From Thermophilibacter mediterraneus (GTDB lineage: Bacteria > Actinomycetota > Coriobacteriia > Coriobacteriales > Atopobiaceae): 64,000 nucleotides of DNA. Of the stretch, positions 41,849-58,748 are shown piece by piece. Position numbers and translations under genes: made by a program. The notes below the pieces were generated by a model. The model ran no database searches. It was not told where the DNA came from and was given only the letters and a program-made list of their open reading frames with translations. The stretch's first letter is position 1, and the number at the start of each line of letters is the position of its first letter. The stretch spans positions 474,382 to 538,381 of the forward strand of contig NZ_FPKO01000008.1 in the NCBI RefSeq assembly GCF_900119385.1, read 5' to 3'.

Positions 41849-43618
41849 CTAGAGCAGGCGCAGGCCGACCTCCTTGAGCTGCGCGCCCGAGACCTCGCTC
41901 GGGGCGTTGGACATGAGGTCGGAGCCGCTTGACGTCTTGGGGAACGCCATGACGTCGCGGATGGAGTCCTCACCGGCGAGCAGCATGCACACGCGGTCGA
42001 GGCCGAGCGCGAAGCCGCCCATCGGGGGCGCGCCGTACTCGAGCGCGTCCATGAGGAAGCCGAACTGCTCGCGGGCGCGCTCCTCGGAGAAGCCCATGAG
42101 CTCGAGCATGTCCATCTGCATCTGGGCGTTGTGGATTCGCATGCCGCCGCCGCCCGCCTCGCAGCCGTCCATGACGAAGTCGTAGGTGGCGGACCCGATC
42201 GAGAGCGGGTCGGCCTTGATCTTCTCGACGTCGAGCTCGGTGGGCAGGGTGAACGGCTGGTGCTCGGCCTCGTAGCGCTTGGCCTCGTCATCCCAGTGGA
42301 AGAGCGGGAAGTTCACGACCCAGAGGAAGTCGTGGCCCTCGCGCGGGACGTTCAGGGCGCTCGCCATGTGCAGGCGCATGCCGCCCAGGATCTCGTCGGC
42401 CCCCTTGCGGTCGGCGACGGCAAACATCACGAGGTCGCCCAGCTCGACGCCCATCTCCTCGCGCAGCGCCGCCATCTCCTCGTCGCTGAAGAACTTGACG
42501 ATGGGGCTGTTGACGGAGCCGTCCTCGCGGAAGGCGATCCAGGCGAGGCCCTTGGCGCCGAACTCTGCGGCGACGTTCGCCAGCTTGTCGATCTGCGCGC
42601 GCGGCCAGGCGCCGGCGCCCTTGGCGTTGATGGCCTTCACGTACTGGCCCTCGGTGGCCGCCGCGCTCGCGAAGAGCTTGAACTTGGAGGCCGAGAAGAT
42701 CTCGGTCACGTCGTGGAGCTCCATGCCGATGCGGGTGTCGGGCTTGTCGGAGCCGTAGGTGTCCATGGCGTCCCAGTAGTCCAGGCGACGCAGCGGGCGG
42801 GGCATCTCGACGCCCATGCGACCGAAGGCGTCGGCGAGCACGTCCTCGAGCTCGGACATGACGTCGTCCTGCTCCACGAAGCTCATCTCGATGTCCACCT
42901 GCGTGAACTCGGGCTGGCGGTCGGCGCGCAGGTCCTCGTCGCGGAAGCACTTGGCGACCTGGTAGTAGCGCTCGACGCCGCCCACCATGAGCAGCTGCTT
43001 GAGCAGCTGCGGGGACTGCGGCAGCGCGTAGAAGTGGCCGGGCTGGGTGCGGCTCGGCACGAGGAAGTCGCGCGCACCCTCCGGGGTGGACTTGAAGAGG
43101 GCCGGGGTCTCGACCTCCATGAAGTCGCGGCCGTGCAGCGCCTCGCGCAGGGCGAAGGTGAAGTCGGAGCGGAGCTTCAGGTTGGCCATCATGCACGGGC
43201 GGCGCAGGTCGAGGTAGCGGTAGCGCAGGCGGACGTCCTCGGCGGTGTCCACGTGGTCCTCGATCTGGAAGGGCGGCGTCTTGGAGGAGTTGAGGACGTC
43301 GATGTGGTCGATGAGGACCTCGATCTCGCCGGTGGCGAGCTTGGGGTTCTCCATGCCCTCGGGGCGCTCCCGCACGACGCCGGTGACCTTGATGGGCCAC
43401 TCGGAGCGGATGGTCTCGGCCGCGTGGAAGGCGTCGCCGCCGGAGTGCTCCGGGTCAAAGGAGACCTGCGTCACGCCGTCGCGGTCGCGCAGGTCGACGA
43501 AGATCAGGCCGCCGTGGTCGCGGCGGTGCCAGACCCAGCCGGTCAGCGTGACCGTCTGGCCGATGTGGTCGCGGCGCAGCTCGCCGCAGGTGTGGGTGTG
43601 CATGGTGTGGTTGTCCAT
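41849..43618 (-). CDS. aspS: Aspartyl-tRNA synthetase (bacterial type)
   Basis: A 589-aa class II synthetase that charges tRNA(Asp), and tRNA(Asn) too if no AsnRS exists. The N-terminal OB fold (10-105) has GWVWHRRDHGGLIFVDLRD. Motif 2 (KCFRDEDLRADRQPEFTQ), the bacterial GAD insertion and the motif 3 region (GGFALGLDR) are intact. Length is typical. ATG at 43616-43618 with AAGAAAGG 10 bases upstream. Its upstream sequence ends at an adapter artefact at 43800, so its true 5' neighbour is unknown. Confidence 0.95.
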   Translation of the reverse strand: MDNHTMHTHTCGELRRDHIGQTVTLTGWVWHRRDHGGLIFVDLRDRDGVTQVSFDPEHSGGDAFHAAETIRSEWPIKVTGVVRERPEGMENPKLATGEIEVLIDHIDVLNSSKTPPFQIEDHVDTAEDVRLRYRYLDLRRPCMMANLKLRSDFTFALREALHGRDFMEVETPALFKSTPEGARDFLVPSRTQPGHFYALPQSPQLLKQLLMVGGVERYYQVAKCFRDEDLRADRQPEFTQVDIEMSFVEQDDVMSELEDVLADAFGRMGVEMPRPLRRLDYWDAMDTYGSDKPDTRIGMELHDVTEIFSASKFKLFASAAATEGQYVKAINAKGAGAWPRAQIDKLANVAAEFGAKGLAWIAFREDGSVNSPIVKFFSDEEMAALREEMGVELGDLVMFAVADRKGADEILGGMRLHMASALNVPREGHDFLWVVNFPLFHWDDEAKRYEAEHQPFTLPTELDVEKIKADPLSIGSATYDFVMDGCEAGGGGMRIHNAQMQMDMLELMGFSEERAREQFGFLMDALEYGAPPMGGFALGLDRVCMLLAGEDSIRDVMAFPKTSSGSDLMSNAPSEVSGAQLKEVGLRLL

Positions 43619-43799
43619 GGGCAACGTGCCTTTCTTCCCTGCCGCCCCGTGTCGTACGGGCGGCGACTGACGGAGAGCGGCGACGTGGCGTAGACAGCGC
43701 AGCGTCGCGCGCGTGGCGATTGTACTACGGGGACGTGCGCGGCGCGCGTGCGGAAAGCATTCGGAAACCTCGGGGGTGGTGGGGCAAGAGGGACGGAGG

Positions 43800-43830
43800 C
43801 TGTCGCGTATACACATCTGACGCTGCCGAG
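43800..43830 (-). other. Illumina Nextera adapter sequence (assembly artefact)
   Basis: TATACACATCTGACGCTGCC at 43808-43827 matches the reverse complement of the Nextera transposase end plus i5 adapter (mosaic end CTGTCTCTTATACACATCT, then GACGCTGCCGACGA). With the flanks, about 27 of 31 bases agree. A frame across it encodes QRQMCIRDS, a peptide typical of adapter contamination. A G-rich run follows. The rest of the 43619-44131 gap holds the palindromes and 23-bp repeats listed next. Confidence 0.92.
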
Positions 43831-43876
43831 GGGGCGGGGGGCCGCGGCCAAGACCCGTCGGCGCCCTCCCATGCAT

Positions 43877-43929
43877 CTGGCAGCCCAGCTCTGCCATTTT
43901 TCCCAAAATTGGCAGCCCAACTCTGCCAA
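43877..43929. promoter_or_regulatory. Paired TTGGCAG-N7-CTGCCAA palindromes, left of the ATPase cassette
   Basis: TGGCAGCCCAGCTCTGCCA (43878-43896) and TTGGCAGCCCAACTCTGCC plus AA (43909-43929). Each is a dyad with a 7-base centre, and the two are offset by 32 bp. The same pair with the same 32-bp offset occurs at 46717-46769 on the other side of the two ATPase genes. Confidence 0.65.
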
Positions 43930-44016
43930 TTTCAGATACTGCCGAGTCAAGAAGGACGATGCACCAGGGGCCGTGCCCCCGCCAATGCGCCGAGCGCCTA
44001 CCTTTGCGACGATTCG

Positions 44017-44131: not shown

Positions 44132-45310
44132 ATGATCGACCGAGAAATGCACTCTAAACTGCACGAACTTGCCGGTAAATATCCCATCCTCTCCGTCACC
44201 GGACCGCGCCAGGGAGGCAAGACCACGCTCGTGCGCAGCGCGTTTGCGGACTACGAGTACCTCTCCATGGAGGACCCGGACGTCCGCAGCGAGTTTGAGG
44301 ACGACCCCCGGCTCTTCCTCTCCCGGCACGCCTCCCACATCATCTTCGACGAAGCACAGCGCACGCCCGAACTCTTCTCGTACCTCCAGGGCATCGTCGA
44401 CGAGACGCGCCAGCCCGGACAGTTCGTCATCACGGGATCACAGAACTTCCTGCTCATGAAGTCAATCGGCCAGTCGCTCGCCGGGCGGGTGGCCCTCTTC
44501 ACGCTGCTCCCCCTCTCCCACCACGAGCTCTCGGAGGCCGGCCAGGAGCCGGAGGGCCTGTTCGACTGGCTGTACCAAGGCGGCTACCCCCGACTCGTCG
44601 CGGACGGAATCGACCCGCTCGACTTTTTCCCCGACTATGTGAGCACCTACCTTGAGCGCGACGTTCGGGCGGAGCTCGGCGTTCGCAACCTCTCCGCCTT
44701 CCAGACGTTTCTGAAGCTCTGCGCCCTCAGGGTAGGTCAGCTCCTCAACGTCTCCTCGCTTGCGTCAGATTGCGGCATCTCGCCCAACACGGCAAAGGAG
44801 TGGCTGTCAATCCTGGAGGCAAGCCATCTGGTGTTCCTCCTGCGCCCTCACTGTGCCAGCCCAACCAAGAGACTCGTAAAGTCCCCGAAGCTGTACTTCT
44901 GTGACACGGGCCTCGCCGCCCACCTCATGGGCATCTCCAGCAGCGAGGAGCTGTCCGGAAGCCCCCTCAAGGGCCCCCTCTTCGAGTGCGCCGTCATCTC
45001 CGAACTCAAGAAGCGCGGCTACGCGCGCAAGCGAGACCCCCAGCTCACCTTCTGGCGCGACGGCCGCAAACGAGAGATCGACGTCCTCGTGGAGCGGGGC
45101 ACGAGCGTCGTGCGAGCCGTGGAGTGCAAGTCCTCCACCACGTACCAGTCGCGCTACTTCGACGTCCTCAACAAGATTGCGCGGGACGAGCTCTCCCTGG
45201 ACGTCCGGCAGCAGGCCGTCGTGTACGGTGGGGAGGCCGAGGCGCACACGCCCCGGGGCGACATGGTGCCCTACACCCGCATCGGGACGCTCCTCGGGCT
45301 TGACGGCTGA
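44132..45310 (+). CDS. AAA family ATPase with DUF4143 domain (first)
   Basis: A 392-aa protein of the large AAA_14/DUF4143 family. Walker A GPRQGGKTT at 24-32, Walker B HIIFDEAQRTPEL, then VITGSQNFLLM (sensor). The C-terminal DUF4143 domain shows at PKLYFCDTGLAAHLMG and FWRDGRKREIDVLVERG ... AVECKSS, which resembles a PD-(D/E)xK nuclease core (D...ExK). The family is common in accessory DNA and its cellular role is unknown. Preceded by 23-bp repeats and paired palindromes; convergent with a second ATPase of the same class. Confidence 0.82.
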   Translation: MIDREMHSKLHELAGKYPILSVTGPRQGGKTTLVRSAFADYEYLSMEDPDVRSEFEDDPRLFLSRHASHIIFDEAQRTPELFSYLQGIVDETRQPGQFVITGSQNFLLMKSIGQSLAGRVALFTLLPLSHHELSEAGQEPEGLFDWLYQGGYPRLVADGIDPLDFFPDYVSTYLERDVRAELGVRNLSAFQTFLKLCALRVGQLLNVSSLASDCGISPNTAKEWLSILEASHLVFLLRPHCASPTKRLVKSPKLYFCDTGLAAHLMGISSSEELSGSPLKGPLFECAVISELKKRGYARKRDPQLTFWRDGRKREIDVLVERGTSVVRAVECKSSTTYQSRYFDVLNKIARDELSLDVRQQAVVYGGEAEAHTPRGDMVPYTRIGTLLGLDG

Positions 45311-45349: not shown

Positions 45350-46702
45350 CTACGCGGCGGCGCCGTTCAGCAGCCACTTCCACGCCGGCACCTGGACGAT
45401 GCGCCCTCCGTCCTTCTCGAGCACCGCATCGGGACCCCTGCCCACAATGAGCGTGGCCTCCTCGCGGCGGCTCTCCGCGAGGGCCTCCCAGAGCGCGCGG
45501 ACCTCGCGCTCGTACGTACCACCCTGGTCGACGTTAGCGCACACCTGGTAAAGGTCGTAGAGCTCACCCGAGAGCGCGTCGCCAACGACAAAGTCGACCT
45601 CGTAGCCATGTCCCTTTGTGCGCAGAGACGAGATCGCCTCACGGCGCATCCCCGGCATTCGCCTGCGAAGCTCGAGGTACACGATGTCCTCGAGCCTCTG
45701 ACCCTCGTCGACCGCGTGAGCCGTCCCACCCGCAAGGGCAAGTCCCGGGTCGATCGCGTAGAGCTTGGGCTGGCTCGTAGTCGACTCGGAAAGCGAGAAG
45801 GAGAGCTCGCGAACGGTAAAGACGAGATATGCCTCCTGATAGTACGCAAGGAGGTCCCCGAGCGTCTCCTTGGTGGTAGACAGCCCCGCTGCCTTGAGGT
45901 CGCTGGTGGCCCTGCGCAGGGACAGCTGCCGTGCGTTGAGCCCAAGGAGGCGCTGCGCGAAGAGCGCGGCCACCCGTGGCTGCCTCACGTTATGGCGCTC
46001 GATGACGTCGCGGGCCACGACACGCTGGACGTAGGACTGCAGCAGGGCGACCGACTGGGTCGCCGGCAGGTCGAGCGTCGCCGGAAAGCCGCCGTCCTGG
46101 AGGTACGTCCGGAACGCCCCCTCAAGCAGCATCGTCTCCTCAGTGGAGCGCGCGACGGCATCGACCCCCGGAATGCCCTTCGCAAGGACATATTCTCTAA
46201 ACGAGAAGGGCAGGAGCTCGAAGTCGAGGGCACGACCGCGAAACTCCGTCGCGATCTCCGTCGAGAGCATCTTTGACGAGGATCCACTCACGTAGATGGT
46301 TGCCCTTCGGGTCGCGACGATGCGCCTGAGCCACGCACCCCAGTCAGACATCTCCTGGAGCTCGTCAAAGAAGAGATAGGCGCCCTCCGAGAGCGCCGAC
46401 GGGTTGATGGCGTAGAAGGCCTCGAGCACCGTGTCCCCCGTCGCAGGGGTGATGGGCTTGAGACGGTCATCGTCGAAGTCGAAGTAGCAGATGCGCTCCG
46501 AGGGCACGCCGGATGAGAGCAGGCGGTCCATCTCCTGGAACAGCCGATAGGACTTTCCGCTGCGCCGCATTCCAATGACGACCTTGACCAGGTTGCCGGC
46601 ACGAGGCACCAACGGTTCCCCAAGGTCGAGCTCGCGGGGGATTATGGGCCTGTACGCGTCGAGCGAGAAGTCCCGGAGCGTGGCAGCGATGATCTCGTTC
46701 AT
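45350..46702 (-). CDS. AAA family ATPase with DUF4143 domain (second)
   Basis: A 450-aa ATPase of the same broad family as its neighbour but clearly divergent. Walker A is IGMRRSGKSY, Walker B AYLFFDELQEM, sensor YVSGSSSKML. The C-terminal DUF4143 part shows at PKLYAIDPGLALA and RTKGHGYEVDFVVGD. The stop lies 39 bp from that of the first ATPase. Paired TTGGCAG...CTGCCAA palindromes lie 15-67 bp upstream of the ATG, a position that fits an operator. Confidence 0.82.
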   Translation of the reverse strand: MNEIIAATLRDFSLDAYRPIIPRELDLGEPLVPRAGNLVKVVIGMRRSGKSYRLFQEMDRLLSSGVPSERICYFDFDDDRLKPITPATGDTVLEAFYAINPSALSEGAYLFFDELQEMSDWGAWLRRIVATRRATIYVSGSSSKMLSTEIATEFRGRALDFELLPFSFREYVLAKGIPGVDAVARSTEETMLLEGAFRTYLQDGGFPATLDLPATQSVALLQSYVQRVVARDVIERHNVRQPRVAALFAQRLLGLNARQLSLRRATSDLKAAGLSTTKETLGDLLAYYQEAYLVFTVRELSFSLSESTTSQPKLYAIDPGLALAGGTAHAVDEGQRLEDIVYLELRRRMPGMRREAISSLRTKGHGYEVDFVVGDALSGELYDLYQVCANVDQGGTYEREVRALWEALAESRREEATLIVGRGPDAVLEKDGGRIVQVPAWKWLLNGAAA

Positions 46703-46716
46703 GGAGGACCTCCATA

Positions 46717-46769
46717 TTGGCAGTCTTACTCTGCCAATATTATCAAAATTGGCAGAGTAAGACTGCCAA
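46717..46769. promoter_or_regulatory. Paired TTGGCAG-N7-CTGCCAA palindromes, right of the ATPase cassette
   Basis: Two 21-bp dyads at 46717-46737 (centre TCTTACT) and 46749-46769 (centre AGAGTAAGA region), offset by 32 bp. The second is the exact reverse complement of the first, so the pair also forms one 53-bp cruciform. They sit upstream of the second ATPase gene, mirroring the pair at 43877. Confidence 0.7.
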
Positions 46770-46896
46770 TTTTGAATCCATCAGTATGCGGTCCCACACC
46801 GCCGAGGAGTCAAACCCAAGCGACACTGACTGAGCTGCGGTATAGCTCTGGCGAGACGAGCGCGAGGAATCTCGATTCGTATTCCTGAATGAAGCT

Positions 46897-47568
46897 CTAG
46901 AGCCTAAACGCCCTATAAGTGTCAACTAGAAAGCGCCGCTTCGGGTCGATTGAGTAGCTCCTCACCCACTCCAGGTCACTTGACCACCGCTCGACCGCCC
47001 TTTTTCGATCAGAGCGCTTTCGCGCGTTTGATATATCAAACTCTAAATATCTCTCAATCTGCATCTTGCTGACAACCCCACGATCCATGAGACTTGCCAG
47101 AATGAGCCTACGCTGACCCATCTTGAGGTCGTCCGTCCTGCTCACGGTGTAGCCATACCGCTTGAGCACAGACTCTTCCGCCAGCGAGCTGAATCTTCCT
47201 TCCTGCGCGCCCCCAGTCCGGGGGAACTTGTACCTGCCCAACAGTGGACCGTGAGCTTCGCGACGGGCCGCGAACGCCTTCGCGCTGACGAAGTACTTCT
47301 TGCATCTCTGACAATAGTCGACCGGCAGACGCACGGGCTTCCCGCCCAACGAGACCAAGACGCCAGTTACCCGTTCGACGGGATGCCCCCTCCTGCGACA
47401 AGCGTCGGCGGCTTCGCTTACGATTAGCATGTACCTGTTGTCATCAAACACAACGGGATCGGGCGAGATTCGCCTTATCGAAGTGGCGGCAGTATCAGAC
47501 TGAGCCCTTCGGGCGGCAGCGCAACCGTCCTCTCCAACCAGAGGCTGCTTGCGAATGTACACAGCCAT
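46897..47568 (-). CDS. Zinc-ribbon protein of unknown function in the defence cassette
   Basis: A 223-aa protein with GGAGG before its ATG. Half of a zinc ribbon is visible (YCQRCKKYFV, Cys86 and Cys89); other Cys and His in the N-terminal half could complete the site. The C-terminal 70 residues (LILASLMDRGVVSKMQIERYLE...) look like a winged-helix-like module. I do not recognise the family. It follows the HEPN-DUF499 gene by 98 bp on the same strand with no obvious terminator, so it is probably the last gene of that operon. Confidence 0.6.
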   Translation of the reverse strand: MAVYIRKQPLVGEDGCAAARRAQSDTAATSIRRISPDPVVFDDNRYMLIVSEAADACRRRGHPVERVTGVLVSLGGKPVRLPVDYCQRCKKYFVSAKAFAARREAHGPLLGRYKFPRTGGAQEGRFSSLAEESVLKRYGYTVSRTDDLKMGQRRLILASLMDRGVVSKMQIERYLEFDISNARKRSDRKRAVERWSSDLEWVRSYSIDPKRRFLVDTYRAFRL

Positions 47569-47666
47569 GGCTTACCTCCAGACATAGCAGCGAACCCAGC
47601 AAGTGTCTTAGCCCAGAACCAAAGCCCTTGCTCGACGGAAGCGACTCCACCGCAAGCCTCCGGACG

Positions 47667-50600
47667 CTACCCGTCAAAGCGATAGTCGCTGATATGCAAG
47701 GTGTTGCAGTTCTCGGACACCGCACGCTGCGTGGGTACGGGAATGCCGGACTCGGCTCGTGAGCGCACCTCAAGCGTAAGCTCCACCTCGGCACCGTCGA
47801 CCTGCTCAAGCTGGGACACGATCTCTTCCACGATAGTGCGCACGTTGAGAATCACGCGCGTGTTGTCCAGCTTGGTGCTCATGGTGAACGAGGTGGGCAT
47901 GTTCCGGGCAGGGACACCTCCCGCGCTCGTCGCGTCCCCACCATGCCCGGCACCACCGGAGCCGCCTCCCGCGGTGCCTGGCCCACCGCCCAGCGGGCCC
48001 CCGGGCGAATCGGGCACCTCAGCACCCTCGCCTCCGCCCCAGGGCTTTCCGCCGGCCGCACCTTTCCCAGCCTCACGTTCGATTTGCTCCTCCGCAACGG
48101 CAGGCTTCACGAGGAAGTCGCTCTGGTTCACCTGTGCTCGAGCCTCGCCAAACGAAAGGTTGAGATAGCGGTCCTCACCAACGCCGTCCGCGATGCCAAA
48201 GTACTCGCGCGGGCCCAGGCCCTGCAGAATCGCCGACTCGAGCACGCTGTAGCCAGCAAGGCGCGGCAGGTAGCAATACGTGCACAGGTACTCCCAAAGC
48301 TGCTTGATCTGAATGTCGCGCCTGTCCTTCCACAGCACCTTGTCAAGTTCCATGCGAAGAAGCGCCGGAGCCCACTGCGTGATTGCGGCCTCGTTGGACA
48401 CGAGCTTGCTCGCGGCCTTGTGCACGACGTCCTCGCCGCCGCCAGCGATGCGATCAGTCTCCCAAACAATATCCATCGAACCGGAGATCAGGTCGACACG
48501 CGGCGCCATGAGCCAGCTATACGCCTCTTGGATGCGCGTCGAAAGCGTCTGGTCGGCACGGCGCACACCCTGCTCCGTCTCACGCTGCTGTGCCATGTCC
48601 AAGTTCAGCTGCTCGCGATCATCGGAGATGCTCCGCCACGCCAGGTATGTGCGCGCCGCCTGCTCGAGCGCCCCGGCGGAACCCCCGTCGCACGCCACGA
48701 ACGTCAGCATGTTCTTGAAGCGTCGGGGCGTCGTCCCCCGCATGGAGAGAAGCTCGTCTGCCAGCTTGATGGCAGCGGAGTCCTCCGACCCACCACGATG
48801 CGGTGCGCTCGGCGGGAGCACCACCAAACGAAGCGTCATCTCATCTGGCACGTCCAACGTGTTCGTAGGACACACGTGCAGGCCCGAGAAGGGCGCGGTC
48901 TTCCGCAGACCCTTCAGCCTCTGCTCAATCTCATACAGCGCATCGGCACGGTTCAGCTGCTGGGCACGGTCCTCCATCACCTTGCGCAGGGTCGGACGCG
49001 TGTCGTACCAGTACCGGTTGCTGCTCCCATCGCTGTAGAGGAAGGACGATGACGCCTGAAGCGTGCTGAGCGCGTCGTTGAAGACGGCGATGTTCTCCCC
49101 TGGCTGCACGACGCCCAGACGGATGTGGGTTCGCTCGATGCCGCGCGCGTTCTGGCCGCTCACGTCGGGAGCCGATCCCAGCATGATGGTGCGAGAAACG
49201 CGACGCGAGGCCAGAACGCGCCCGTACCGCGAGTTCGCCTGGTCGTTCTTGTACGGCACCGAGCTCTTGCCGTCAATCTCTGAGTCAACCACGCCGTTCC
49301 AGTTCTCGTCCAGATAGCGCGTCAGCTCGTCACGCACGTTGGGCACGTCGAGCGGAAGCGACCCCGGCATGATCATCGGGCTCTCGTCGTGCGACATCCA
49401 AAGCTCGTGGATGACGGCGGCCATGAGGCGCAGGACGCCGCGCGTGCGCTGGAAGGTCTCGAGGGTCGCCCAGTCCTCGTAGAGGCGGTCGAACACCTCC
49501 GGATGGATGGGATAGCAGCTCACCATGCGGTCACGGTACTCCAGCTCCCGCGCGTCAACGGGAAAGTCCACAGAGTTTGCGGCATACATTTTAGAGAAGG
49601 CGTTGCACACGGCGTCCCGCGCGGCAACGTCCTTGCAGTCCAGGAACAGCCTACGGCGCACCACCTCAAAGCCCTCGCTCGCGCTCACGGGCTTCCAGAT
49701 AGACTCCATACGCCCGAAGGTATGCTCGATGGCCTCCAGGGCGCGCTGGCCGCTCTCGCCCCCAATCTCGCGGTCGCTCTCGGGGATGGACGCTACCACG
49801 ATGCTCCTCTTGCTCGCGCGGGCTGCCTCGGTAAGCTCCTGGACGAACGTAATGAAGTTATCGAAGGTGCCGGCAGGCAGCTTTTCTACCCCGAAGAGCT
49901 TTTTTGCGTAAGCCACGAGCTCATCCACGAGCACGAGCGCGCACCCACAAGCGTCGAACATCTCCGCAAGTGCCTCGGAACCGGGAGAAACCCCGCGCCG
50001 GTCAGCCTCGCGCACGTATTCGTAGAGCTCCGGCTTGCCCGAAGATTTGGAGAGCTGATAGGCAATCTCGCCCCAAATGGTATTCACCGTGATACCCGAC
50101 ATGTCGGCCGGACGCTTTGCCTTCGCGGGGTTGAGCGCCGTGCCCACGATAACGGCAACGTGCACCTCGGGCACCTCGGAGAGACCTGCCGCATCGAGCA
50201 CGGGGGCAACGTTGGGAATCTGATTCAGGAGCGTGCGGCTACGCAGCATGTGGTAGAGCGCCAACATGCTGTGGGTCTTACCTCCACCGAACGCGGTCTT
50301 GAGCTGAATGACCGGCTCGCCATCGAGACCAGCCACACGCCGAAGGGCCTGAACGAGCAGCCCCTTCATGCCCTCGGTCACATACGTGCGCCCGAAGAAC
50401 TCGACCGGATCACGATACTCAAGGGACCCCTCGTTGCGCGCCACCTGCGCAAGATCGGCGGCGAATTCCGCATTGCGGTAGCGTCCCTCGGCCACATCCT
50501 GATGCGGCTCCATGACGTCTCGCCAGCTGGGAAGCCCCGTCACCGACACGGTCTCGGGAACTTTCCTCGACCTGGCCGCAGGCGTCTGAGCGTTGCTCGT

Positions 50601-51068
50601 GGCTGCCACCGACCCCTGCTCGCTCCCGTAACGAGCCTGACGCAGGAGCGCGTTGATGTGTGCCTCCGCCTCGGTATTGATCTGGCCACAGAGACGGCTC
50701 ATCGTATCGAGAGCACGCCACGTGTCGCTGTCACTGATGCCGTCAATGCCCGGATGCGCCCACTTGTTGCGGGTACCCTTGAGCTCGATAGCCCAGTTCT
50801 TGCAGTCGCGCGGCAAGACCTTTCGGAAGACCTCGTTCCAGTTAATCTCTATGAGGAGCAGTGCCTTGGCCATATCAAGCGATGCAGCCAGTTCCTTGAG
50901 CTGGCCGCTCTCTGGCAAGTCACGGCGCTGATCCTCATATAGCTTTCCGTACACGCCAAGTTGCCACCAGTCCTGGCCAAACGCCTTCACAAGCTCCTGC
51001 ACTTCAAAGGGCACGATCGCCTTGAGCAGAGCGTCAAATCCCTTAGTGATGAGCGTGTGGTTATCCAT
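47667..51068 (-). CDS. HEPN (Swt1-type) - DUF499 ATPase
   Basis: An 1133-aa protein. Residues 1-125 resemble the Swt1-type HEPN domain and hold the RNase-like motif R-x4-H (Arg100 ... His105 in TRNKWAH). From about 180 it is a DUF499 (COG1483) P-loop ATPase: Walker A TAFGGGKTHS (258-267) and Walker B ALVLVDELVAYA. A Gly-rich linker (about 1005-1050) leads to a conserved C-terminal domain. DUF499 proteins occur beside DUF1156 methylases and helicases in defence islands. Its ATG follows the methylase stop by 9 bp. It could use ATP to control RNA or DNA attack; this is inference. Confidence 0.82.
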   Translation of the reverse strand: MDNHTLITKGFDALLKAIVPFEVQELVKAFGQDWWQLGVYGKLYEDQRRDLPESGQLKELAASLDMAKALLLIEINWNEVFRKVLPRDCKNWAIELKGTRNKWAHPGIDGISDSDTWRALDTMSRLCGQINTEAEAHINALLRQARYGSEQGSVAATSNAQTPAARSRKVPETVSVTGLPSWRDVMEPHQDVAEGRYRNAEFAADLAQVARNEGSLEYRDPVEFFGRTYVTEGMKGLLVQALRRVAGLDGEPVIQLKTAFGGGKTHSMLALYHMLRSRTLLNQIPNVAPVLDAAGLSEVPEVHVAVIVGTALNPAKAKRPADMSGITVNTIWGEIAYQLSKSSGKPELYEYVREADRRGVSPGSEALAEMFDACGCALVLVDELVAYAKKLFGVEKLPAGTFDNFITFVQELTEAARASKRSIVVASIPESDREIGGESGQRALEAIEHTFGRMESIWKPVSASEGFEVVRRRLFLDCKDVAARDAVCNAFSKMYAANSVDFPVDARELEYRDRMVSCYPIHPEVFDRLYEDWATLETFQRTRGVLRLMAAVIHELWMSHDESPMIMPGSLPLDVPNVRDELTRYLDENWNGVVDSEIDGKSSVPYKNDQANSRYGRVLASRRVSRTIMLGSAPDVSGQNARGIERTHIRLGVVQPGENIAVFNDALSTLQASSSFLYSDGSSNRYWYDTRPTLRKVMEDRAQQLNRADALYEIEQRLKGLRKTAPFSGLHVCPTNTLDVPDEMTLRLVVLPPSAPHRGGSEDSAAIKLADELLSMRGTTPRRFKNMLTFVACDGGSAGALEQAARTYLAWRSISDDREQLNLDMAQQRETEQGVRRADQTLSTRIQEAYSWLMAPRVDLISGSMDIVWETDRIAGGGEDVVHKAASKLVSNEAAITQWAPALLRMELDKVLWKDRRDIQIKQLWEYLCTYCYLPRLAGYSVLESAILQGLGPREYFGIADGVGEDRYLNLSFGEARAQVNQSDFLVKPAVAEEQIEREAGKGAAGGKPWGGGEGAEVPDSPGGPLGGGPGTAGGGSGGAGHGGDATSAGGVPARNMPTSFTMSTKLDNTRVILNVRTIVEEIVSQLEQVDGAEVELTLEVRSRAESGIPVPTQRAVSENCNTLHISDYRFDG

Positions 51069-51077
51069 CGTTTCCCC

Positions 51078-53840
51078 CTATAGGCCCGCGTCGTTGAAAG
51101 CAAACGTGCCCTGAGCCGGCATCTGTGCCGCTCGACTCTGAATCTCGGGCCATGCCGTCACGAGCGAGTTGTATGCGTACGCCTCGGCATTCCACCCCTT
51201 GCGCTCAGCGACGGTGTACAGACGGTACGCGAGGACTCTGGTATTTTCGGCAGGACTGTTGAAGTCGCGAACCATCTGTGCGCACGCCTCCACGCCTCCG
51301 GTCTCCATCGCACGCGTGAGCTGCTGGGTGAAGAGCCAGCAGAAAGCCGGTTCGGGCACCTCCTTCAGCTCATCCCGCGTGAGCAGACGAACCTGCCCCT
51401 TGCTCGAGCTGAGCGCTCCGCGCTCGACAAGCCCCGGTATGGAGGTGTTCTTGGCGCGCGCAAGCACGTCCGCCTCGCCGAAGCGCATCTCGTTGAACGC
51501 GCACTGGGTGTAGAGGTCCACGCAGAAGCGACTCTCGCGGTCGAGGTCACTGTCCTGGTCCGAGAAGTACAGGTCAAGCTCCTGATTGATGATCTGCAGC
51601 GCGGAGCGCACCGACATCTCAGATCCGTCCGCCTCGAGCACCTTCGAGAAGCGCGAGTACACCCCGATGCCCGGGCCGATGGCGCTCTGCGCCAGGTCAA
51701 CCGGGGCAATGTTGCTCGTTCGGAGCTTGTCGAGAGCGGGGCGCAGCTCACGCTTGAGCGCGGCAAGGAAGTCTCGACGGGTCACCATGGGGGCATCGAC
51801 CGGACGCTTGCGGCAGACAAGGACGATGGAGGATGCCAGGGCGTTGGTGCCGGAAGCAATCATCCTCGAACCCATCTCGGTGCGCATAGGCCAGGTACCC
51901 GTAATGACAAATCCTGCCCTAATGATGGCTGAAAGCATGGTCTCCCAACCGGTAGAGGCCGTAGCCCCGGCGGCATTTCGTGTCTCCGTTTCGCTCTGCT
52001 TAAAGGCGTAGTAAATGGTCACAGGTACCTTGTCGCAGGCGCAGTGGTTTACCTGCCTGAAGGCCTGGAACATACCTTCCTCAAAGAAGTTGCGCGCACC
52101 CTCCTTACCGCGGTTCTCGCGATAGGGCGTAGCCACCAGCTCCTCCGCTTTGGGAACGAGCAGGGTGCTGAAGAGCTCCGGATAGGTACCCTTGAGCGAC
52201 TGACGCAGCCACACATAGAAGAAATCCGAGAGATCTGCATAACCGATGTTGTCATAGTAGGGAGGGTCAGTACTCACAATGATATTGCGCATCCCATTAT
52301 CAGACTGCGCATCAAACTGCGAAGCAACACCAGGATGATTCCTAGAAAAGTTAAATGAATCCGCCGTCAAATTTCGAACCTCATTGTTAAGGAGCACCTG
52401 CCAAGATCCGGAACTCGAGCCGAGAATATTCCCTTCCGCATGATCCCAGACCATTGGAATCGCCTGCCTAGCAAACAACTGACGAGGACACTGCGCATTT
52501 GGCTCCCATCGATTTAAGGCATTACCAAGGTCGGCCTGCTTATCCAGCACGAAGGCAAGGTAGACACCGATTGCCTGACCATAGGCAAGAGCGCCGGAAC
52601 CGTCATCGGCAAGACCCACCCCATCGTCGGGCATACCAGCTGCCACGGCATCCTCGTAGGCACGCTGCTGAGCCTCCCCTACCAGCGCCGAGAGCGTCGT
52701 CAGCGCGGTGAGCTGACGGTTGGTGAAGAGCTTCCAAAACTCATCGAGGCCATACACGTTGGTATTGAGGTGTCCCGGATAGTAAGCGAGTCGACCCTGC
52801 GGATAATCAGCAGGCAGCTCAACATTCGCAGCATCTGCCTGCGCTTGGTTGGGCGTGAAATAGAGACGACCACGATTCCCCTCCGCAACGATCGCCATGA
52901 GCATTGAGCCCATCCTGCCTTCACAGGATTCCGCTCGAATATGTTCAAACCCAATCGGTTGCCCACAGTGCACACAGGTCGCGCCGCGACGATTCACAGT
53001 GCCCTCGCGCTCGCTCTTGCCGGGCTTCACCTCAAAGCGGATGTCCCCACCCTCGCAGATGGGCTCCACATGCCACTCCTTGCCCTTTTTCTTGGAGAGG
53101 TCAAAGGAACGCACGAGGATCGTCTCGTGGCCGCACGCAGGGTTGGGGCACTTCACGGTGCGCGCCCAGATCCATGCGATGACCGTGGCATCGCTGCCAT
53201 CCTCCAGCTGCACCTTGGGATACAGGTGCCCGATGCGGCGCTCGGCCTCATCGCGCATCCAGGTGCCGTAGTACTCCACGTCGGCAGCGAGGCCTGCGTT
53301 GCCCTTCCATGATTCCAAGCCGCGCCGTGCTTGAGCATCGGGATTCACCGCCGGTTTATCAGCAAAGATCGGCGGAATCTCAATCATGGCCTTGTTGATG
53401 GTCACAGCAACGGGGTTCAGGTCTTGCGCGTATGCCTTGAGTCCCAAGCGCTGCGCCTCGAGCGGGATAGCCCCACCGCCTGCAAAGGGATCCAGCAGGG
53501 GCGGAAGTTCATCGCCCATTGACTTCTTGATCTCTGCCCTTGCCGCGTCGAGCACACGCTCATCGTTGGAGTTCTCCCACACCACCAGCTCGCGCAGGAT
53601 GTTGAAGAGCCGTTTGCGCTCGGCTGCCTGGTCCTGCTCGGTCGGAAACTCCTCGGGATGCGAGGAAGGGTCGTCCACGAGCGACGACCAGATGACCGCG
53701 CGCGCCGCAGCAAGCGGACGACGCGCCCACCACAAGTGCAGCGTGGAGGGGTGCCCGTGACGGATGGACTTCTCGCGGGCCGACGCCGCGTTGATGTCAT
53801 CGAGCGGCAGGGCCACCTCGATGAGCTTCTTTACTGCCAT
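51078..53840 (-). CDS. DUF1156 adenine-specific DNA methylase with Zn ribbon (COG1743)
   Basis: A 920-aa methyltransferase. The N-terminal DUF1156 block (HPSTLHLWWARRPLAAARAV) is followed by the SAM motif DPFAGGGAIPLEA (117-129). Zinc-ribbon Cys pairs lie near 230-300 (CPNPACG and CVHCGQ). The amino-methylase catalytic motif is STDPPYYDN near 525. It probably marks host DNA at adenine or cytosine N4. Its ATG overlaps the helicase stop by 10 bp. The segment 52230-52560 is clearly more AT-rich than its surroundings and may be an exchanged recognition region. Confidence 0.85.
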   Translation of the reverse strand: MAVKKLIEVALPLDDINAASAREKSIRHGHPSTLHLWWARRPLAAARAVIWSSLVDDPSSHPEEFPTEQDQAAERKRLFNILRELVVWENSNDERVLDAARAEIKKSMGDELPPLLDPFAGGGAIPLEAQRLGLKAYAQDLNPVAVTINKAMIEIPPIFADKPAVNPDAQARRGLESWKGNAGLAADVEYYGTWMRDEAERRIGHLYPKVQLEDGSDATVIAWIWARTVKCPNPACGHETILVRSFDLSKKKGKEWHVEPICEGGDIRFEVKPGKSEREGTVNRRGATCVHCGQPIGFEHIRAESCEGRMGSMLMAIVAEGNRGRLYFTPNQAQADAANVELPADYPQGRLAYYPGHLNTNVYGLDEFWKLFTNRQLTALTTLSALVGEAQQRAYEDAVAAGMPDDGVGLADDGSGALAYGQAIGVYLAFVLDKQADLGNALNRWEPNAQCPRQLFARQAIPMVWDHAEGNILGSSSGSWQVLLNNEVRNLTADSFNFSRNHPGVASQFDAQSDNGMRNIIVSTDPPYYDNIGYADLSDFFYVWLRQSLKGTYPELFSTLLVPKAEELVATPYRENRGKEGARNFFEEGMFQAFRQVNHCACDKVPVTIYYAFKQSETETRNAAGATASTGWETMLSAIIRAGFVITGTWPMRTEMGSRMIASGTNALASSIVLVCRKRPVDAPMVTRRDFLAALKRELRPALDKLRTSNIAPVDLAQSAIGPGIGVYSRFSKVLEADGSEMSVRSALQIINQELDLYFSDQDSDLDRESRFCVDLYTQCAFNEMRFGEADVLARAKNTSIPGLVERGALSSSKGQVRLLTRDELKEVPEPAFCWLFTQQLTRAMETGGVEACAQMVRDFNSPAENTRVLAYRLYTVAERKGWNAEAYAYNSLVTAWPEIQSRAAQMPAQGTFAFNDAGL

Positions 53841-56800
53841 GTGTCTGTCCTTTCAAGCACGACCTCGGCCGACGCGCGCAAACGCGCAAGGTCATAGGTG
53901 ACGCTGTTCTCGGTGAATGCAGGGGAATGGAGCGCGGGCTTGCGCAGGTAGGTGGTGTGGGCGCGCGGCCCGTCAACCTCAACGACAGCAAGCAGCCATC
54001 CATCGGGGCGGTTGAGCGCGCAGAGGATCTCGTTCTTGGAGAGCGTCACGGTGTCGGCTCCCGCAGCACGGCCCTTGACCTCAATGAGCCTCAGCGCCGG
54101 AGCGTCGCCCTCGCGAGCGCCCTCCGGCACGGCGGACTCGATGTCGTAGCCAATCTTTCGCTGCGCACTCACGTCACGAGGAAGGTTGCCGAGCTCGCGC
54201 TCGATTGATGAGACGACATCCATCGCGCGGAGCTCCACCATGCGACGGGCGTCAGCGTCGATGGCGGGGTTCGCCGCCGTCTCGCCAGCACGGAGCATCG
54301 AGGCGGGGAGTATGAGGGCGCCGCCCACCACGCGAGGCGGAGCGGGCGAGAGCTGCTGCTGCAGGTCGAGCTGCGCGGTTCTCCTCCGAAGCCGCTCAGC
54401 AAGCTCGTTCGCGCGCTTCTCTGCCTGCGCTGAGTTCAGCCGCGCGTTGCGCTTGCCCGCATCCTCGCGCTCCTTGAGCTCCCAGGCGCGGGCGTCCCAG
54501 TACTGAATCTCCGCGCGAAGGCGCTTCTCGACCGCGCGGCGAACCTTGTCCACCTGAGCGCAGACGCGCTTGCGAACCTCGGAGAGGTGCTGGGGAAGGA
54601 TTCGCTGGATGGCATAGTCCGTGGCGATGCCCTCCGGATCGCCCTCCAGCCAGGCCAGCTCCTCGGCCAGGGCATCCGTACGCGCAAGCTCGGCCTTGGT
54701 AGGCGCGCGGTAATCGAGGTAGGGAGCATAGCCCGCATCGGAGGCGTTCCCGTCGTAGTCAATCTCCACGAAGTGCACGGCTCTGCTGACGACGTGCTTC
54801 GTGCCGTCAGCCACCGTCGTCCCGTCGCTCACGGAGCTCTCCACGTAGAAGAGAAGTCGCGGGACAGAAGCCGTGGGGTCATCGTCCACGAGCACGCTGC
54901 CGCTCCTGAGCGTCCCCATCCCCGGATCAAGGATCACCGAGACCAAGGAGTCCAGCAACGGATGCCCCGGGCACACGAGGTCGGCGGGCACGCCGCCCGC
55001 GGGAGCCGGGCAGAGGTCCTTCTCGAAGCATATCCGCTCGTAGCTGCGCAGCACTGGGTCGGCTACGCCAACCTTTGCGTCGCGCGTGCGCACCGCGAAA
55101 GGCACCTCCACGACCTCGTAGCGCCCCGGCTCGCGCTCGGCAACGCTGCCGCCGAGCTTGCGCACGGCCTCCAGGAAGAACGCCTCGATGAAGTGGGGCT
55201 CGAGCTTGCGCGCCTCCATGCGCTCCATGTCCTCGCGGATGCGCATCACCTGGTGCACGTCCATCACATCGGCGGTGAGCGCGTACTCGTCGAGCAGCTT
55301 CCTCAGCGACTCGGCGTTGACGGAGCTGTCCACCGCTTGGTTCAGGCGCTCGCGGACCTCGGGGCTGTCGCCGTAGCGGATCGCCTCCACGAGGAGCTCG
55401 CGCAGGGGCCGGTCCTCAAAGGTCACGCGGCCCAGTATGTCGAATACACGCCCGCCGAGCGCCGTGCGCTCCTCCTCAAGCTTCCGAAAGAGCCGATCGA
55501 ACACCTGGCCCTCACGGGTCTCCCGAGCCACGAGGTTCCAGAGGTGGCAGACTTCCGTCTGACCGATGCGGTGGATGCGGCCGAAGCGCTGCTCGATGCG
55601 ATTGGGGTTCCAAGGCAGGTCGTAGTTCACCATGAGGTGTGCGCGCTGCAGGTTAATTCCCTCACCGGCAGCGTCCGTCGCCACCAGGATGCGCACCTCT
55701 CCATCCTGCCGGAACCGCTCCTCCGCCCGATGGCGCTCGTCCCGCGGCATGCCCCCCTTGATGGTGAGCACGACATCATGGCTACCCAGGAGCTGGCGAA
55801 TCTTGGCTGCAAGATATTCCAGCGTATCCTTGTGCTCGGTGAAGACGATGAGCTTCTCGCGCCTGCCGTCCTTGGAAAACATCGACGCGTTCTCCTGTAG
55901 GAGGCGAGAGAACTCGTCCCACTTGCGGTCCTCCCCGCTTATGCGGACGTCATTCGCGCGTCGCTCAAGCTGCTTGAGTGTCGCAATCTCGACCCCGAGC
56001 TCAGCGGCGGTCGCAGAGGCAGACGCCGAGTCCATGACGTCATCCTCAAGACCCTCGAGCTCCTCTGGCGTGAAGTCATCCTCGTCGAAATCTTCGTCGA
56101 ACGAGACCGCGCTGGCATACGCGCCAGCACCACGCACCTGATCGTTCATCTCGGCTAGGCGCGCTTCAAGGCGCTCGCGCCTGCGCCGAAGCGACTGATA
56201 GATCGCCTCGGGCGACGAGGCCAGGCGTCGCTGCAGGATGGTGAGTGCAAAGCCAACGCTGTTCTTGCGCTTACCATCAAGCCGGTCGGCACGGTTGAAC
56301 TCGTTTGTCACGTAGTCGGTCACGGCCTCGTAGAGGCCTGCCTCGGCGGGCGAGAGCGTGTAGCTCACCGTATACGCACGGCGCTCCGGGAAGAGCGGCC
56401 GACCGTCAAAGCGCAGCAGCTCCTCCTTCACGAGCCGGCGCATCACGTCCGAAACGTCGGGGACGCCTCGCTTTGTCTCGGGCGGCAACGCCTGCGGGGA
56501 GCCGGCGCGCCCCCTCGGCCTCATGTGCCGCGCACCCTCAAAGCGGTCCGGATCGACGAGGGCCATGAAGAGCTGGAAGTCCTCGGGCTTCCCGTTGTGC
56601 GGCGTCGCCGTGAGCAGCAGCAGATTCTCAGTGACGGTGCCGAGAAGCCTTCCCAGCAGATATCGCTTGGTGTACTTGACCTCACCGCCAAAGACAGTTG
56701 CGCTCATCTTGTGGGCCTCGTCGCACACGACGAGATCCCAGCTTGACTCCCTGAGGAGCTCGCGGACGTCATCGTTTCTCGCGAGCTTGTCTAGGCGCGC

Positions 56801-57412
56801 GATGCAGAGGTTCTTCTCGACGAAGGCGTTGCGCGTGAGGGATGCCTCGAGAAGGTCGTTTGTGAGAATGTCAAAGTTGAGGCTGAACTTGCGACGAAGC
56901 TCGTCCTGCCACTGCTCGACGAGATTCCCGGGGCACACAATCAGGCAGCGCCTGAGGTCGCCACGAGCGATCATCTCCTTGATGAGCAGGCCCGTCATGA
57001 TGGTCTTTCCCGCGCCGGGGTCGTCCGCAAGAACGAAGCGAAGCGGCATCTTGGGGAGCATGTCCTGATAGACGGCTGAAATCTGATGCGGCAGGGGATC
57101 AATTGATGAGGTCCGAATTGCCAGGTAGGGGTCGAACAAGTGCGCGAGATGAATGCGGTATGCCTCGGAGGCGAGCTTGAGGTCGTCCGCATCCGCGTCA
57201 AAGGTCCAGGCCGAGGCGCCCTCCAGCGAGAGGCGTTCCTCGTCGTATCGATAGAGCATCGTCTCGCCGAGTGCTCCGGAATCTGCGCGATAGGCGAGCT
57301 CGAGGCACATGTTTCCGTGCCACGTGACCGCCACCGCAGTAACGGGGGCATCCCCGGTGACGCCAAGAAGCCGTGCACCGGGACGAATGTCCTCAAGCCT
57401 TGTCGCACTCAT
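53831..57412 (-). CDS. SNF2-type helicase with C-terminal DUF3883 nuclease-like domain
   Basis: A 1193-aa protein from the ATG that opens MSATRLEDIRPG, the usual family start; an ATG 14 codons upstream (57454) is also possible, and neither has a strong ribosome-binding site. Walker A DDPGAGKT (131-138), DEAH (231-234), LLTATPHNG and QRFGRIHRIGQ are intact. The C-terminal DUF3883 domain has GYDIES ... LRLIEVKGR (Glu1111, Lys1113), a possible PD-(D/E)xK core. It should translocate on double-stranded DNA. First gene of the cassette, controlled by paired palindromes shared with the XRE gene. Confidence 0.87.
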   Translation of the reverse strand: MSATRLEDIRPGARLLGVTGDAPVTAVAVTWHGNMCLELAYRADSGALGETMLYRYDEERLSLEGASAWTFDADADDLKLASEAYRIHLAHLFDPYLAIRTSSIDPLPHQISAVYQDMLPKMPLRFVLADDPGAGKTIMTGLLIKEMIARGDLRRCLIVCPGNLVEQWQDELRRKFSLNFDILTNDLLEASLTRNAFVEKNLCIARLDKLARNDDVRELLRESSWDLVVCDEAHKMSATVFGGEVKYTKRYLLGRLLGTVTENLLLLTATPHNGKPEDFQLFMALVDPDRFEGARHMRPRGRAGSPQALPPETKRGVPDVSDVMRRLVKEELLRFDGRPLFPERRAYTVSYTLSPAEAGLYEAVTDYVTNEFNRADRLDGKRKNSVGFALTILQRRLASSPEAIYQSLRRRRERLEARLAEMNDQVRGAGAYASAVSFDEDFDEDDFTPEELEGLEDDVMDSASASATAAELGVEIATLKQLERRANDVRISGEDRKWDEFSRLLQENASMFSKDGRREKLIVFTEHKDTLEYLAAKIRQLLGSHDVVLTIKGGMPRDERHRAEERFRQDGEVRILVATDAAGEGINLQRAHLMVNYDLPWNPNRIEQRFGRIHRIGQTEVCHLWNLVARETREGQVFDRLFRKLEEERTALGGRVFDILGRVTFEDRPLRELLVEAIRYGDSPEVRERLNQAVDSSVNAESLRKLLDEYALTADVMDVHQVMRIREDMERMEARKLEPHFIEAFFLEAVRKLGGSVAEREPGRYEVVEVPFAVRTRDAKVGVADPVLRSYERICFEKDLCPAPAGGVPADLVCPGHPLLDSLVSVILDPGMGTLRSGSVLVDDDPTASVPRLLFYVESSVSDGTTVADGTKHVVSRAVHFVEIDYDGNASDAGYAPYLDYRAPTKAELARTDALAEELAWLEGDPEGIATDYAIQRILPQHLSEVRKRVCAQVDKVRRAVEKRLRAEIQYWDARAWELKEREDAGKRNARLNSAQAEKRANELAERLRRRTAQLDLQQQLSPAPPRVVGGALILPASMLRAGETAANPAIDADARRMVELRAMDVVSSIERELGNLPRDVSAQRKIGYDIESAVPEGAREGDAPALRLIEVKGRAAGADTVTLSKNEILCALNRPDGWLLAVVEVDGPRAHTTYLRKPALHSPAFTENSVTYDLARLRASAEVVLERTDTWQ

Positions 57413-57481
57413 AGCAGCCCATTTCGGCGGAAGGAGGCTGGCGGGGCTCGCCATGAGCCCACCATCTTCTGCCGCTCATAT

Positions 57482-57542
57482 GTCGGATATATCCGACGAT
57501 GAGTTTAAAGCATCTGCCCGCATCTGTCGGGTTTACCCGACA
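57482..57542. promoter_or_regulatory. Two TGTCGG...CCGACA operators between the helicase and XRE genes
   Basis: GTCGGATATATCCGAC (57482-57497, perfect) and TGTCGGGTTTACCCGACA (57525-57542, one central mismatch pair). Their centres are 44 bp apart, about four helical turns. They sit in the 162-bp divergent promoter region and are natural targets for the adjacent XRE protein. Confidence 0.7.
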
Positions 57543-57574
57543 GCCAATCTGCGAGTGGCCCATAGCATGAAGTC

Positions 57575-57883
57575 ATGGACACAGGCAAGACGTGCACATA
57601 CGTCCGCAGGCACGTGGGCGGAAGAATCGAGGAGCTGCGCGAGCGAAGTGGCGTCAGCCAGACGCAGCTTGCCAAGATGATTCCCATGAACCGCACGTAC
57701 TACAACGACCTCGTGCTCGGGAAGGCAAATCCAACACTCGACAAGCTCGTCAAGATCGCCGACTCACTCGACGTTCCCCTGACCGAGCTCTTCTTCGGGC
57801 TCGGAGACGTGCCGCCCCATCAGCTCGTGGAGTACGACGGTACGGAGGGCGCGAGGGCCACCCAGGCCCGGGAGCGGTCGTAG
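57575..57883 (+). CDS. XRE family transcriptional regulator of the defence cassette
   Basis: A 102-aa protein with a Cro/C1-type helix-turn-helix at about 15-72 (RIEELRERSGVSQTQLAKMIPMNRTYYNDLVLGKANPTLDKLVKIAD in essence), followed by a short acidic tail. It is transcribed away from the helicase and probably represses both directions by binding the palindromes 33-93 bp upstream. Such control genes often time expression of modification and attack functions. The 196-bp gap after it holds no recognised feature. Confidence 0.85.
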   Translation: MDTGKTCTYVRRHVGGRIEELRERSGVSQTQLAKMIPMNRTYYNDLVLGKANPTLDKLVKIADSLDVPLTELFFGLGDVPPHQLVEYDGTEGARATQARERS

Positions 57884-58079: not shown

Positions 58080-58748
58080 ATGCCCGCATACAAGACCGTG
58101 GTGTTCGACCTCGACGGAACCCTGCTCAACACGCTCGAGGACCTCTGGATCTCCACCAACGCGGCGCTCGCCGCGCACGGAATGCCCAAGCACACCATCG
58201 ATGACGTGCGCCGCTTCGTTGGCAACGGCATCGCCCTGCTCATCCACCGAGCCGTGCCCGCCGGAACCCCGGCCGACGTCGAGGCGGCGGTGCTCGAGGA
58301 GTTCAAGCGCCACTACGGGGCGCACTGCGAGGACCACACGGCGCCCTATCCCGGCATCCCGCAGATGCTCTCGCGCCTGCACGAGGCGGGCGTGGGACTC
58401 GCGGTCGTCTCCAACAAGGCCGACTTCGCCGTGCAGGAGCTCGTGAGCCGGCAGTTTCCCGGGACCTTCGACGCGGTCCTGGGAGAGAACGAGGCCGCGG
58501 GCATCCGGAAGAAGCCGGCCCCGGACATGGTCGAGGCGGCGCTCGAGCGCATGGGCCGCGACCGCGACGGGCTCGTCTACGTGGGGGACTCCGAGGTCGA
58601 CGTGCAGACCGCGGCAAGCGCCGCGTGCCCGTGCGTCACGTGCACGTGGGGCTTTCGCACCCGCGGGGAGCTGGCGGAGGCGGGCGCCACGACCTATGTG
58701 GACAGTCCCCGTGAGCTGGAGCTCGTTCTTCTCGGCAGCGCTCGCTGA
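58080..58748 (+). CDS. gph: HAD-family phosphatase, phosphoglycolate phosphatase-like
   Basis: A 222-aa cytoplasmic hydrolase behind ATAGGAGA. HAD motif I DLDGTLLNT (Asp10 and Asp12), motif II VVSNKAD, the Lys in KKPAPDM and motif III GDSEVD are intact. The cap and length match the Gph/PgmB group, so phosphoglycolate or another small phosphate ester is the likely substrate. The last codons lie within a CGTTCTTCTCGGC motif. Stands alone. Confidence 0.85.
   Translation: MPAYKTVVFDLDGTLLNTLEDLWISTNAALAAHGMPKHTIDDVRRFVGNGIALLIHRAVPAGTPADVEAAVLEEFKRHYGAHCEDHTAPYPGIPQMLSRLHEAGVGLAVVSNKADFAVQELVSRQFPGTFDAVLGENEAAGIRKKPAPDMVEAALERMGRDRDGLVYVGDSEVDVQTAASAACPCVTCTWGFRTRGELAEAGATTYVDSPRELELVLLGSAR

Follow-up and report, generated by a model that had tools for sequence, protein, structure and literature searches.

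A five-gene cassette of Thermophilibacter mediterraneus lies at positions 46897-57883 of the 64,000-nucleotide stretch of contig NZ_FPKO01000008.1 (the window). Its three large genes very probably form an Hma (helicase-methylase-ATPase) system, in the HEPN-fused form that is also classed as Type-1 BREX-related; the family identity follows from profile matches, and the function is predicted from it. This core is an already known, named system and is not to be counted as new. The lineage has added two things to it: a small XRE-type regulator gene with two operator-like palindromes at one end, and at the other a gene for a 223-residue protein with a putative zinc-binding signature, here called ZnR. 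We read the regulator and its two sites as a plug-in socket that would accept unrelated restriction systems, either Hma or a split Type IIG-like restriction-modification (RM) system, and would control newcomers at once. ZnR would be a general accessory of Hma, type I, McrBC/GmrSD and Type IIG-like operons, perhaps a shared adaptor or fail-safe. This combined reading is tentative, and we assign it a probability of about 0.3.

The core was identified with PADLOC models. HmaA (hmaA, 53831-57454, minus strand; 1207 amino acids) scored 1525 bits over residues 19-1197, HmaB (hmaB, 51078-53840, minus; 920 amino acids) 1142 bits over residues 3-910, and HmaC (hmaC, 47667-51068, minus; 1133 amino acids) 1034 bits over residues 179-1132. 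The three genes are adjacent on one strand, as expected for a single Hma operon. From the coordinates, hmaA and hmaB overlap by 10 nucleotides, 9 nucleotides separate hmaB from hmaC, and the ZnR gene (46897-47568, minus) follows hmaC after 98. The start of hmaA may be Met15 (about 57412) and not 57454, judging from the N-termini of sister HmaA proteins. A preliminary description of this DNA had proposed a five-gene defence cassette with this order, these strands and these overlapping or nearly touching genes, and the open reading frame coordinates bear out this layout; the assignment to defence likewise holds. Pfam also confirmed the domains it had named: SNF2, Helicase_C and NOV_C (= DUF3883, 53957-54238; the C-terminal PD-(D/E)XK domain) in HmaA, DUF1156 in the DNA methylase HmaB, and in HmaC a Swt1-like HEPN domain (50676-51044) fused to a DUF499 AAA+ ATPase.

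The predicted catalytic residues are in place. A motif alignment placed nuclease residues D1104, E1125 and K1127 in HmaA; HmaB has DPFAGGG, DPPY and an internal CxxxxC/CxxC zinc motif, and both Walker A and the HEPN R-x4-H are intact in HmaC. Across the sister loci in this alignment, DPPY was retained in 14 of 14 HmaB rows, Walker A in 13 of 13 HmaC rows and D...ExK in 11 of 11 close HmaA rows. The R-x4-H motif was retained in 11 of the 12 HEPN-bearing rows, with Tyr replacing His in L043. A distant relative, L047, lacks both the HEPN domain and the nuclease motif.

This architecture has been published repeatedly. A HEPN-DUF499 ATPase fusion, encoded in one operon with RM components and an SNF2 helicase fused to DUF3883, was described in 2013 in the relevant section of PMC3710099, and the corresponding part of PMC7641849 gives an operon of COG1743, DUF499 and a SWI2/SNF2-nuclease. 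The name Hma was given in 2021 to a candidate system of three genes, with 1,638 instances in 26 phyla (Payne et al., PMC8565338, Hma passages). Such operons were reclassed in 2026 as Type-1 BREX-related, with 2446 taxa, of which 1370 have HEPN and 1921 the helicase nuclease; the Type-1 features are a DUF499 ATPase, an N6-methyltransferase with DUF1156, an SNF2 helicase and no DUF3780 gene, and 79% of Type-1 taxa have a C-terminal PD-(D/E)XK domain in the helicase (PMC12839542, Type-1 section). The window operon shares the HEPN-DUF499 ATPase, the DUF1156 methylase and the SNF2 helicase with its C-terminal PD-(D/E)XK domain, and ZnR, which has no Pfam match above cut-off, is its sole extra operon gene. 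It shares with Hma all three proteins at nearly full length in the order A-B-C, but its HEPN domain precedes the part of HmaC that the PADLOC model covers, and the three-gene unit in the Hma passages of PMC8565338 includes neither XRE nor ZnR. Neither is named in the Type-1 section or the related passages of PMC12839542.

The preliminary description had suggested an under-described variant, a view to be dropped if the genes proved to be a standard named system or not to be conserved as a unit. For the three core genes it falls, since the Hma models matched nearly end to end and the architecture is published; XRE and the 223-residue gene are extras, and the five genes are not conserved together. 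Several points weigh against our reading of the core. The NCBIfam antiphage equivalogs for DUF499 (177 of 1200 bits) and DUF1156 (95.5 of 1000 bits) were far below cut-off. In its Hma passages, PMC8565338 leaves Hma outside the activity testing and labels HmaB an m5C methylase; our reading of HmaB as a putative adenine methylase follows its DPPY motif and more recent papers.

The kinship to DISARM that had been proposed found no support beyond the helicase superfamily. A DISARM variant with a DrmD-like helicase and a DrmMI-like methylase, in which the HEPN-DUF499 ATPase and the Zn-ribbon protein replaced drmA, drmB and drmC, is hardly credible: the runner-up PADLOC profile for HmaA was DrmD (408 bits), and DrmA gave 211 bits, all of them SNF2-type helicases, against 1525 bits for its own model, and the NCBIfam DrmD model gave 355 bits, below its cut-off of 610. 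What the window shares with class 1 DISARM (DrmD, DrmMI) is SNF2 helicase ancestry and the presence of a DNA methylase. As the preliminary description had noted, drmB and drmC are missing: DrmB (DUF1998/MZB) had no match among the window proteins tested and no MZB domain was found anywhere in the genome, in a search whose control was positive in 8 of 14 genomes, and DrmC (PLD) had no match among the window proteins tested, to which the search for it was confined. The scores and these missing parts refute DISARM membership. BREX membership was likewise rejected, as PglZ had no match and BrxC merely 11.5 bits among the seven proteins profiled.

Within Coriobacteriia the core is patchy but coherent. 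An HmaB match was found in 22 of 296 genomes, including the genome studied here, and several of these are only distant. We fetched 14 Hma regions and scanned 13 with all five proteins; the 3.1-kb L016 was covered only in six-frame ZnR profile scans. All ten complete close loci contain complete, close HmaA, HmaB and HmaC in A-B-C order. The remaining scanned loci are L045, which ends at a contig edge, and the distant relatives L046 and L047, the latter in the order C-B-A. Homologues of XRE and ZnR were detected in none of the 13 other Coriobacteriia Hma loci (phmmer, E 1e-3), which places both outside the conserved core. That ZnR is a fourth gene of Hma in the strict sense was rejected because it is absent from all 14 regions fetched.

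Some sister loci have genes inserted in the core, and genes embedded within Hma operons are mentioned in the pertinent part of PMC12111858. Three genes that resemble those for MqsR, MqsA and a SecB-like chaperone form a module separating hmaB from hmaC at L040 (6935-8250), in the same place at L041, and at L045 (1550-2822). It resembles a toxin-antitoxin-chaperone unit; only MqsA of L045 exceeded the Pfam cut-off, and the L040 and L041 modules were recognised by sequence likeness. Between hmaA and hmaB, a GmrSD_N (DUF262-type) restriction gene was found at L040 (11108-12949, by Pfam) and L041 (11301-13142, with the same N-terminus). At L044 (4811-6136), a DUF4143 ATPase of the type bordering the window island lies between hmaB and hmaC.

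The reading of the regulator as a socket starts from the place that the cassette occupies. The island is flanked by aspS (41849-43906, minus; aspartyl-tRNA synthetase, named from sequence without a profile search) on the left and a gph-like HAD phosphatase gene (58080-58748, plus; HAD_2 in Pfam) on the right. Both were matched on one contig in 23 of 25 genus relatives searched, the aspS match being partial in G278 and G182. The distance between them was about 0.07-1.2 kb in 13 relatives, 1.8-3.7 kb in 3 and 6-20 kb in 7, and is 14 kb in the window. This is a variable slot with differing content. The seven long slots (L078-L084) encode two methylases (224-226 and 505-551 amino acids) and a large protein of 846-988 amino acids, with nearly identical N-termini. 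Profile searches with the three L084 proteins and the large L080 protein returned Eco57I/MmeI-type methylases and a T5orf172 domain. We call this cassette split Type IIG-like because the large protein and the second methylase of L084 match separate parts of a single Type IIG model. A fragment of the 3' part of hmaC, about 100 bp long, lies beside aspS in G278, adjoining the Type IIG-like cassette; it shares 74-82% identity with five HmaC genes (82% with window hmaC). Another species of the genus therefore probably had Hma in this slot.

The XRE gene (57575-57883, plus; 102 amino acids, HTH_3 in Pfam) has the RM control protein as its top PADLOC family (Control_protein, 41.5 bits), and it has the make-up of that class: a small C-protein-related helix-turn-helix protein, an adjacent RM operon and an operator pair. 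The paired operators across which the preliminary description had it diverge were confirmed between XRE and the helicase gene, as the palindromes GTCGGATA/TATCCGAC at 57482-57497 and CTGTCGGGT/ACCCGACAG at 57524-57543. We derived a 20-bp consensus, CTGTYGGNTATANCCRACAG, afterwards from the window and the sister loci, that is, from the loci then scored. O1, on the cassette side (57480-57499, including the perfect palindrome 57482-57497), scores 17/20 and O2, on the XRE side (57524-57543), 19/20; they are the sole sites of at least 17/20 in the window.

XRE homologues (E 1e-15) occur at 17 places in 14 of 31 genus genomes, and all 17 were inspected. Ten face a cassette, which is Hma in the window and Type IIG-like in the nine others (L078-L084, L135 and L136); the contig of L136 stops ahead of the large gene, and L135 has an in-frame stop in the first methylase. 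Seven places have no cassette (L088, L090, L091, two in L093, L100 and L137). Two sites are present at all ten cassette-bearing places; relative to the XRE start, one lies at -86 to -95 and the other at -46 to -52, and they score 15-20/20. At the seven cassette-less places the best site is at -51/-52 only (15-18/20), and scores elsewhere are at most 13, apart from one L093 copy, which has a 15 at -127. When each locus was shuffled 300 times by mononucleotides, the best scores were 15-17/20, so for the weakest sites, at 15/20, the argument is their fixed position. The recognition helix and the O2 half-site co-vary, in rows that are related and not independent: with the helix DRSHLN, 11 of 12 places have the half-site CCAAC (L088 has CCCAC), and where the helix has other residues, CCGAC is found in the window, L080, L090 and L135 and CCAAC in the second L093 copy.

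None of the ten other Hma loci examined has a site above 15/20, the shuffle level, in the 1.3 kb around hmaA. Given this, and with sister XRE units facing Type IIG-like cassettes, the Hma genes of the window stand behind a control unit that faces another system in sister species. RM control (C) proteins and RptR are likewise small DNA-binding regulators with palindromic sites before a restriction operon; RptR, in the portion of PMC12255303 that describes it, has another fold and a 6-bp palindrome and partners Type I RM, whereas the window XRE has 20-bp sites, a divergent gene and the same kind of unit facing Hma or a Type IIG-like cassette. No paper dealing with control of Hma by an XRE protein turned up in the open-licence literature searched.

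Hma might instead function alone, with XRE, the operators and ZnR being leftovers of former slot residents that have no role in Hma. The variable length and content of the slot and the persistence of XRE at seven cassette-less places fit such a history, as do the broken ZnR copy of L135, the absence of ZnR from the 14 class Hma regions and the lack of XRE and ZnR homologues in 13 of them. We consider it rather unlikely, since neither reading frame is disrupted in the window and a second occurrence of ZnR behind HmaC, in G770, belongs to a different clade of the ZnR tree. O1 also looks kept for use, as it directly precedes hmaA and none of the seven cassette-less places has it.

Other findings tell against our reading of the regulator. 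The operator consensus was derived from the same loci, and position is all that backs the weakest sites (15/20). The window XRE is nearest to that of G015 (79%; gph 78%), yet G659, G280, G278 and G182, whose gph is 84-85% identical to the window's, have an XRE of only 53-54%. The XRE allele thus does not track species, which indicates that the XRE unit itself has been exchanged and weakens the case for a resident regulator; import of XRE, Hma and ZnR as one block is equally possible. Outside the genus, XRE homologues mostly lack both the sites and a restriction cassette. The one in G707, from another family, faces the same Type IIG-like cassette without a clear operator pair, and inspection by eye found no such cassette beside XRE at the other seven of the eight out-of-genus places. 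One of the eight, L134, bears a short open reading frame that, judged by a motif, may be a fragment of a C5-cytosine methylase.

The second half of our combined reading concerns ZnR. As the preliminary description had it, this is an unrecognised protein that looks zinc-binding: it has no family in PADLOC, Pfam, NCBIfam or PHROGs, reached only a sub-threshold E of 0.068 with Pfam DUF5771, and gave weak matches only in a PDB profile search (best E 0.018, RIG-I). An AlphaFold model from a three-row alignment had a mean pLDDT of 53. The conserved signature is [C/H]-x4-5-H ... C-x2-C (C-x4-H ... C-x2-C in the window), which suggests zinc binding, followed by a region that is helical in this low-confidence model. 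In the interval between hmaC and ZnR, promoter and terminator signals were no better than in shuffled sequence.

ZnR matches, with the genome studied here counted in, were found in 3 of 296 class genomes when the single protein was the query (one weak), 2 of 396 phylum genomes (one weak), 8 of 140 family genomes and 9 of 377 order genomes (one weak). A scan of genome contigs gave two loci, among them a frame-shifted one in a Clostridiales bin. Most family members have 500-760 amino acids, with the ZnR module at the C-terminus. Thirteen chromosomal loci were compared (the window, L135, L147-L153, L154, which equals L048 and L002, L165, L166 and L049), excluding the weak, stop-bearing hits L003 and L051. 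Six of them have ZnR directly behind a restriction gene on the same strand: HmaC (window, L149 and L153), McrC (L151), HsdR (L154/L048) or a Type IIG-like gene (L135, with the broken ZnR copy). Two more have McrBC or Mrr within 3 kb (L147 and L148). No restriction gene was seen near the other five (L150, L165, L152, L166 and L049); ZnR is at a contig edge in L150, L165 is a 4.8-kb contig and L152 has an OLD-like gene nearby. These are raw counts, and L149 and L153, both taken from the same bin (8% contamination), may represent a single event.

In a 13-row tree, window ZnR falls in a clade (96/98) with forms that neighbour type I, McrBC and Mrr genes, and the Hma-linked forms of G770 fall outside it. 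Strong support is confined to one inner branch of this tree, and several of its end branches are long; if it is right, the link between ZnR and Hma arose twice. ZnR might also be a gene in its own right, mobile or of phage origin, whose presence in restriction islands is incidental, a possible but doubtful account to which the five loci without a restriction gene and the ZnR relatives in two unannotated human-faecal contigs labelled phage would conform; it is countered by the six same-strand positions directly behind restriction genes of four kinds, and by searches that gave no match in plasmids and none confirmed in viral contigs. ZnR as a restriction accessory is the reading we prefer: encoded at the 3' end of such operons, it would probably be a nucleic-acid- or complex-binding partner.

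A trio of GmrSD, NADAR/DUF6508 and Mrr genes follows ZnR at two loci, behind McrBC in L151 (3904-12650) and behind Hma in L149 (3462-7400), where one opposite-strand gene lies between ZnR and the trio. Its recurrence is a further sign of exchange between restriction operons.

The most likely mechanism for the cassette runs along the lines proposed in PMC12839542 (Type-1 section) and the corresponding passages of PMC3710099. HmaB would methylate a target site in host DNA, and HmaC, as an Orc/Cdc6-like AAA+ ATPase, would aid assembly of a scanning complex on incoming DNA that lacks the modification. HmaA would travel along this DNA and its PD-(D/E)XK domain would cut, with the HEPN RNase of HmaC as a back-up that may attack RNA upon restriction failure. 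XRE, in the manner of an RM control protein, would bind O1 and O2 and set expression of hmaABC and of itself. PMC12839542 cites, as its reference 112, phage defence by an Snf2-nuclease in Halomonas.

Two further genes border the island outside Hma. A DUF4143 AAA ATPase gene (44132-45310, plus; PADLOC candidate PDC-S01) is followed by a second (45350-46702, minus; PDC-S01), of which L078 and L087 have a near-identical copy in the same slot. Nested TTGGCAG...CTGCCAA palindromes lie directly upstream of both (46711-46775 and 43890-43933), and related copies lie beside the same DUF4143 genes in relatives; the exact pattern as searched occurs genome-wide only at 46711-46775. In 2-kb bins the GC content of the island (44-58 kb) is 0.59-0.66, compared with 0.66-0.75 in the remaining window bins. 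No tRNA that could serve as an attachment site was found within the window.

The interest of the locus thus lies in its regulator unit and its last gene, ZnR, and not in the known core. It has long been asked how a freshly acquired restriction system is kept from damaging its new host, and one type of regulator with an operator pair, facing two unrelated systems in a single slot, opens this question to direct tests. Since ZnR proteins occur behind restriction genes of four kinds, this unnamed family is a concrete candidate for an accessory that restriction systems share.

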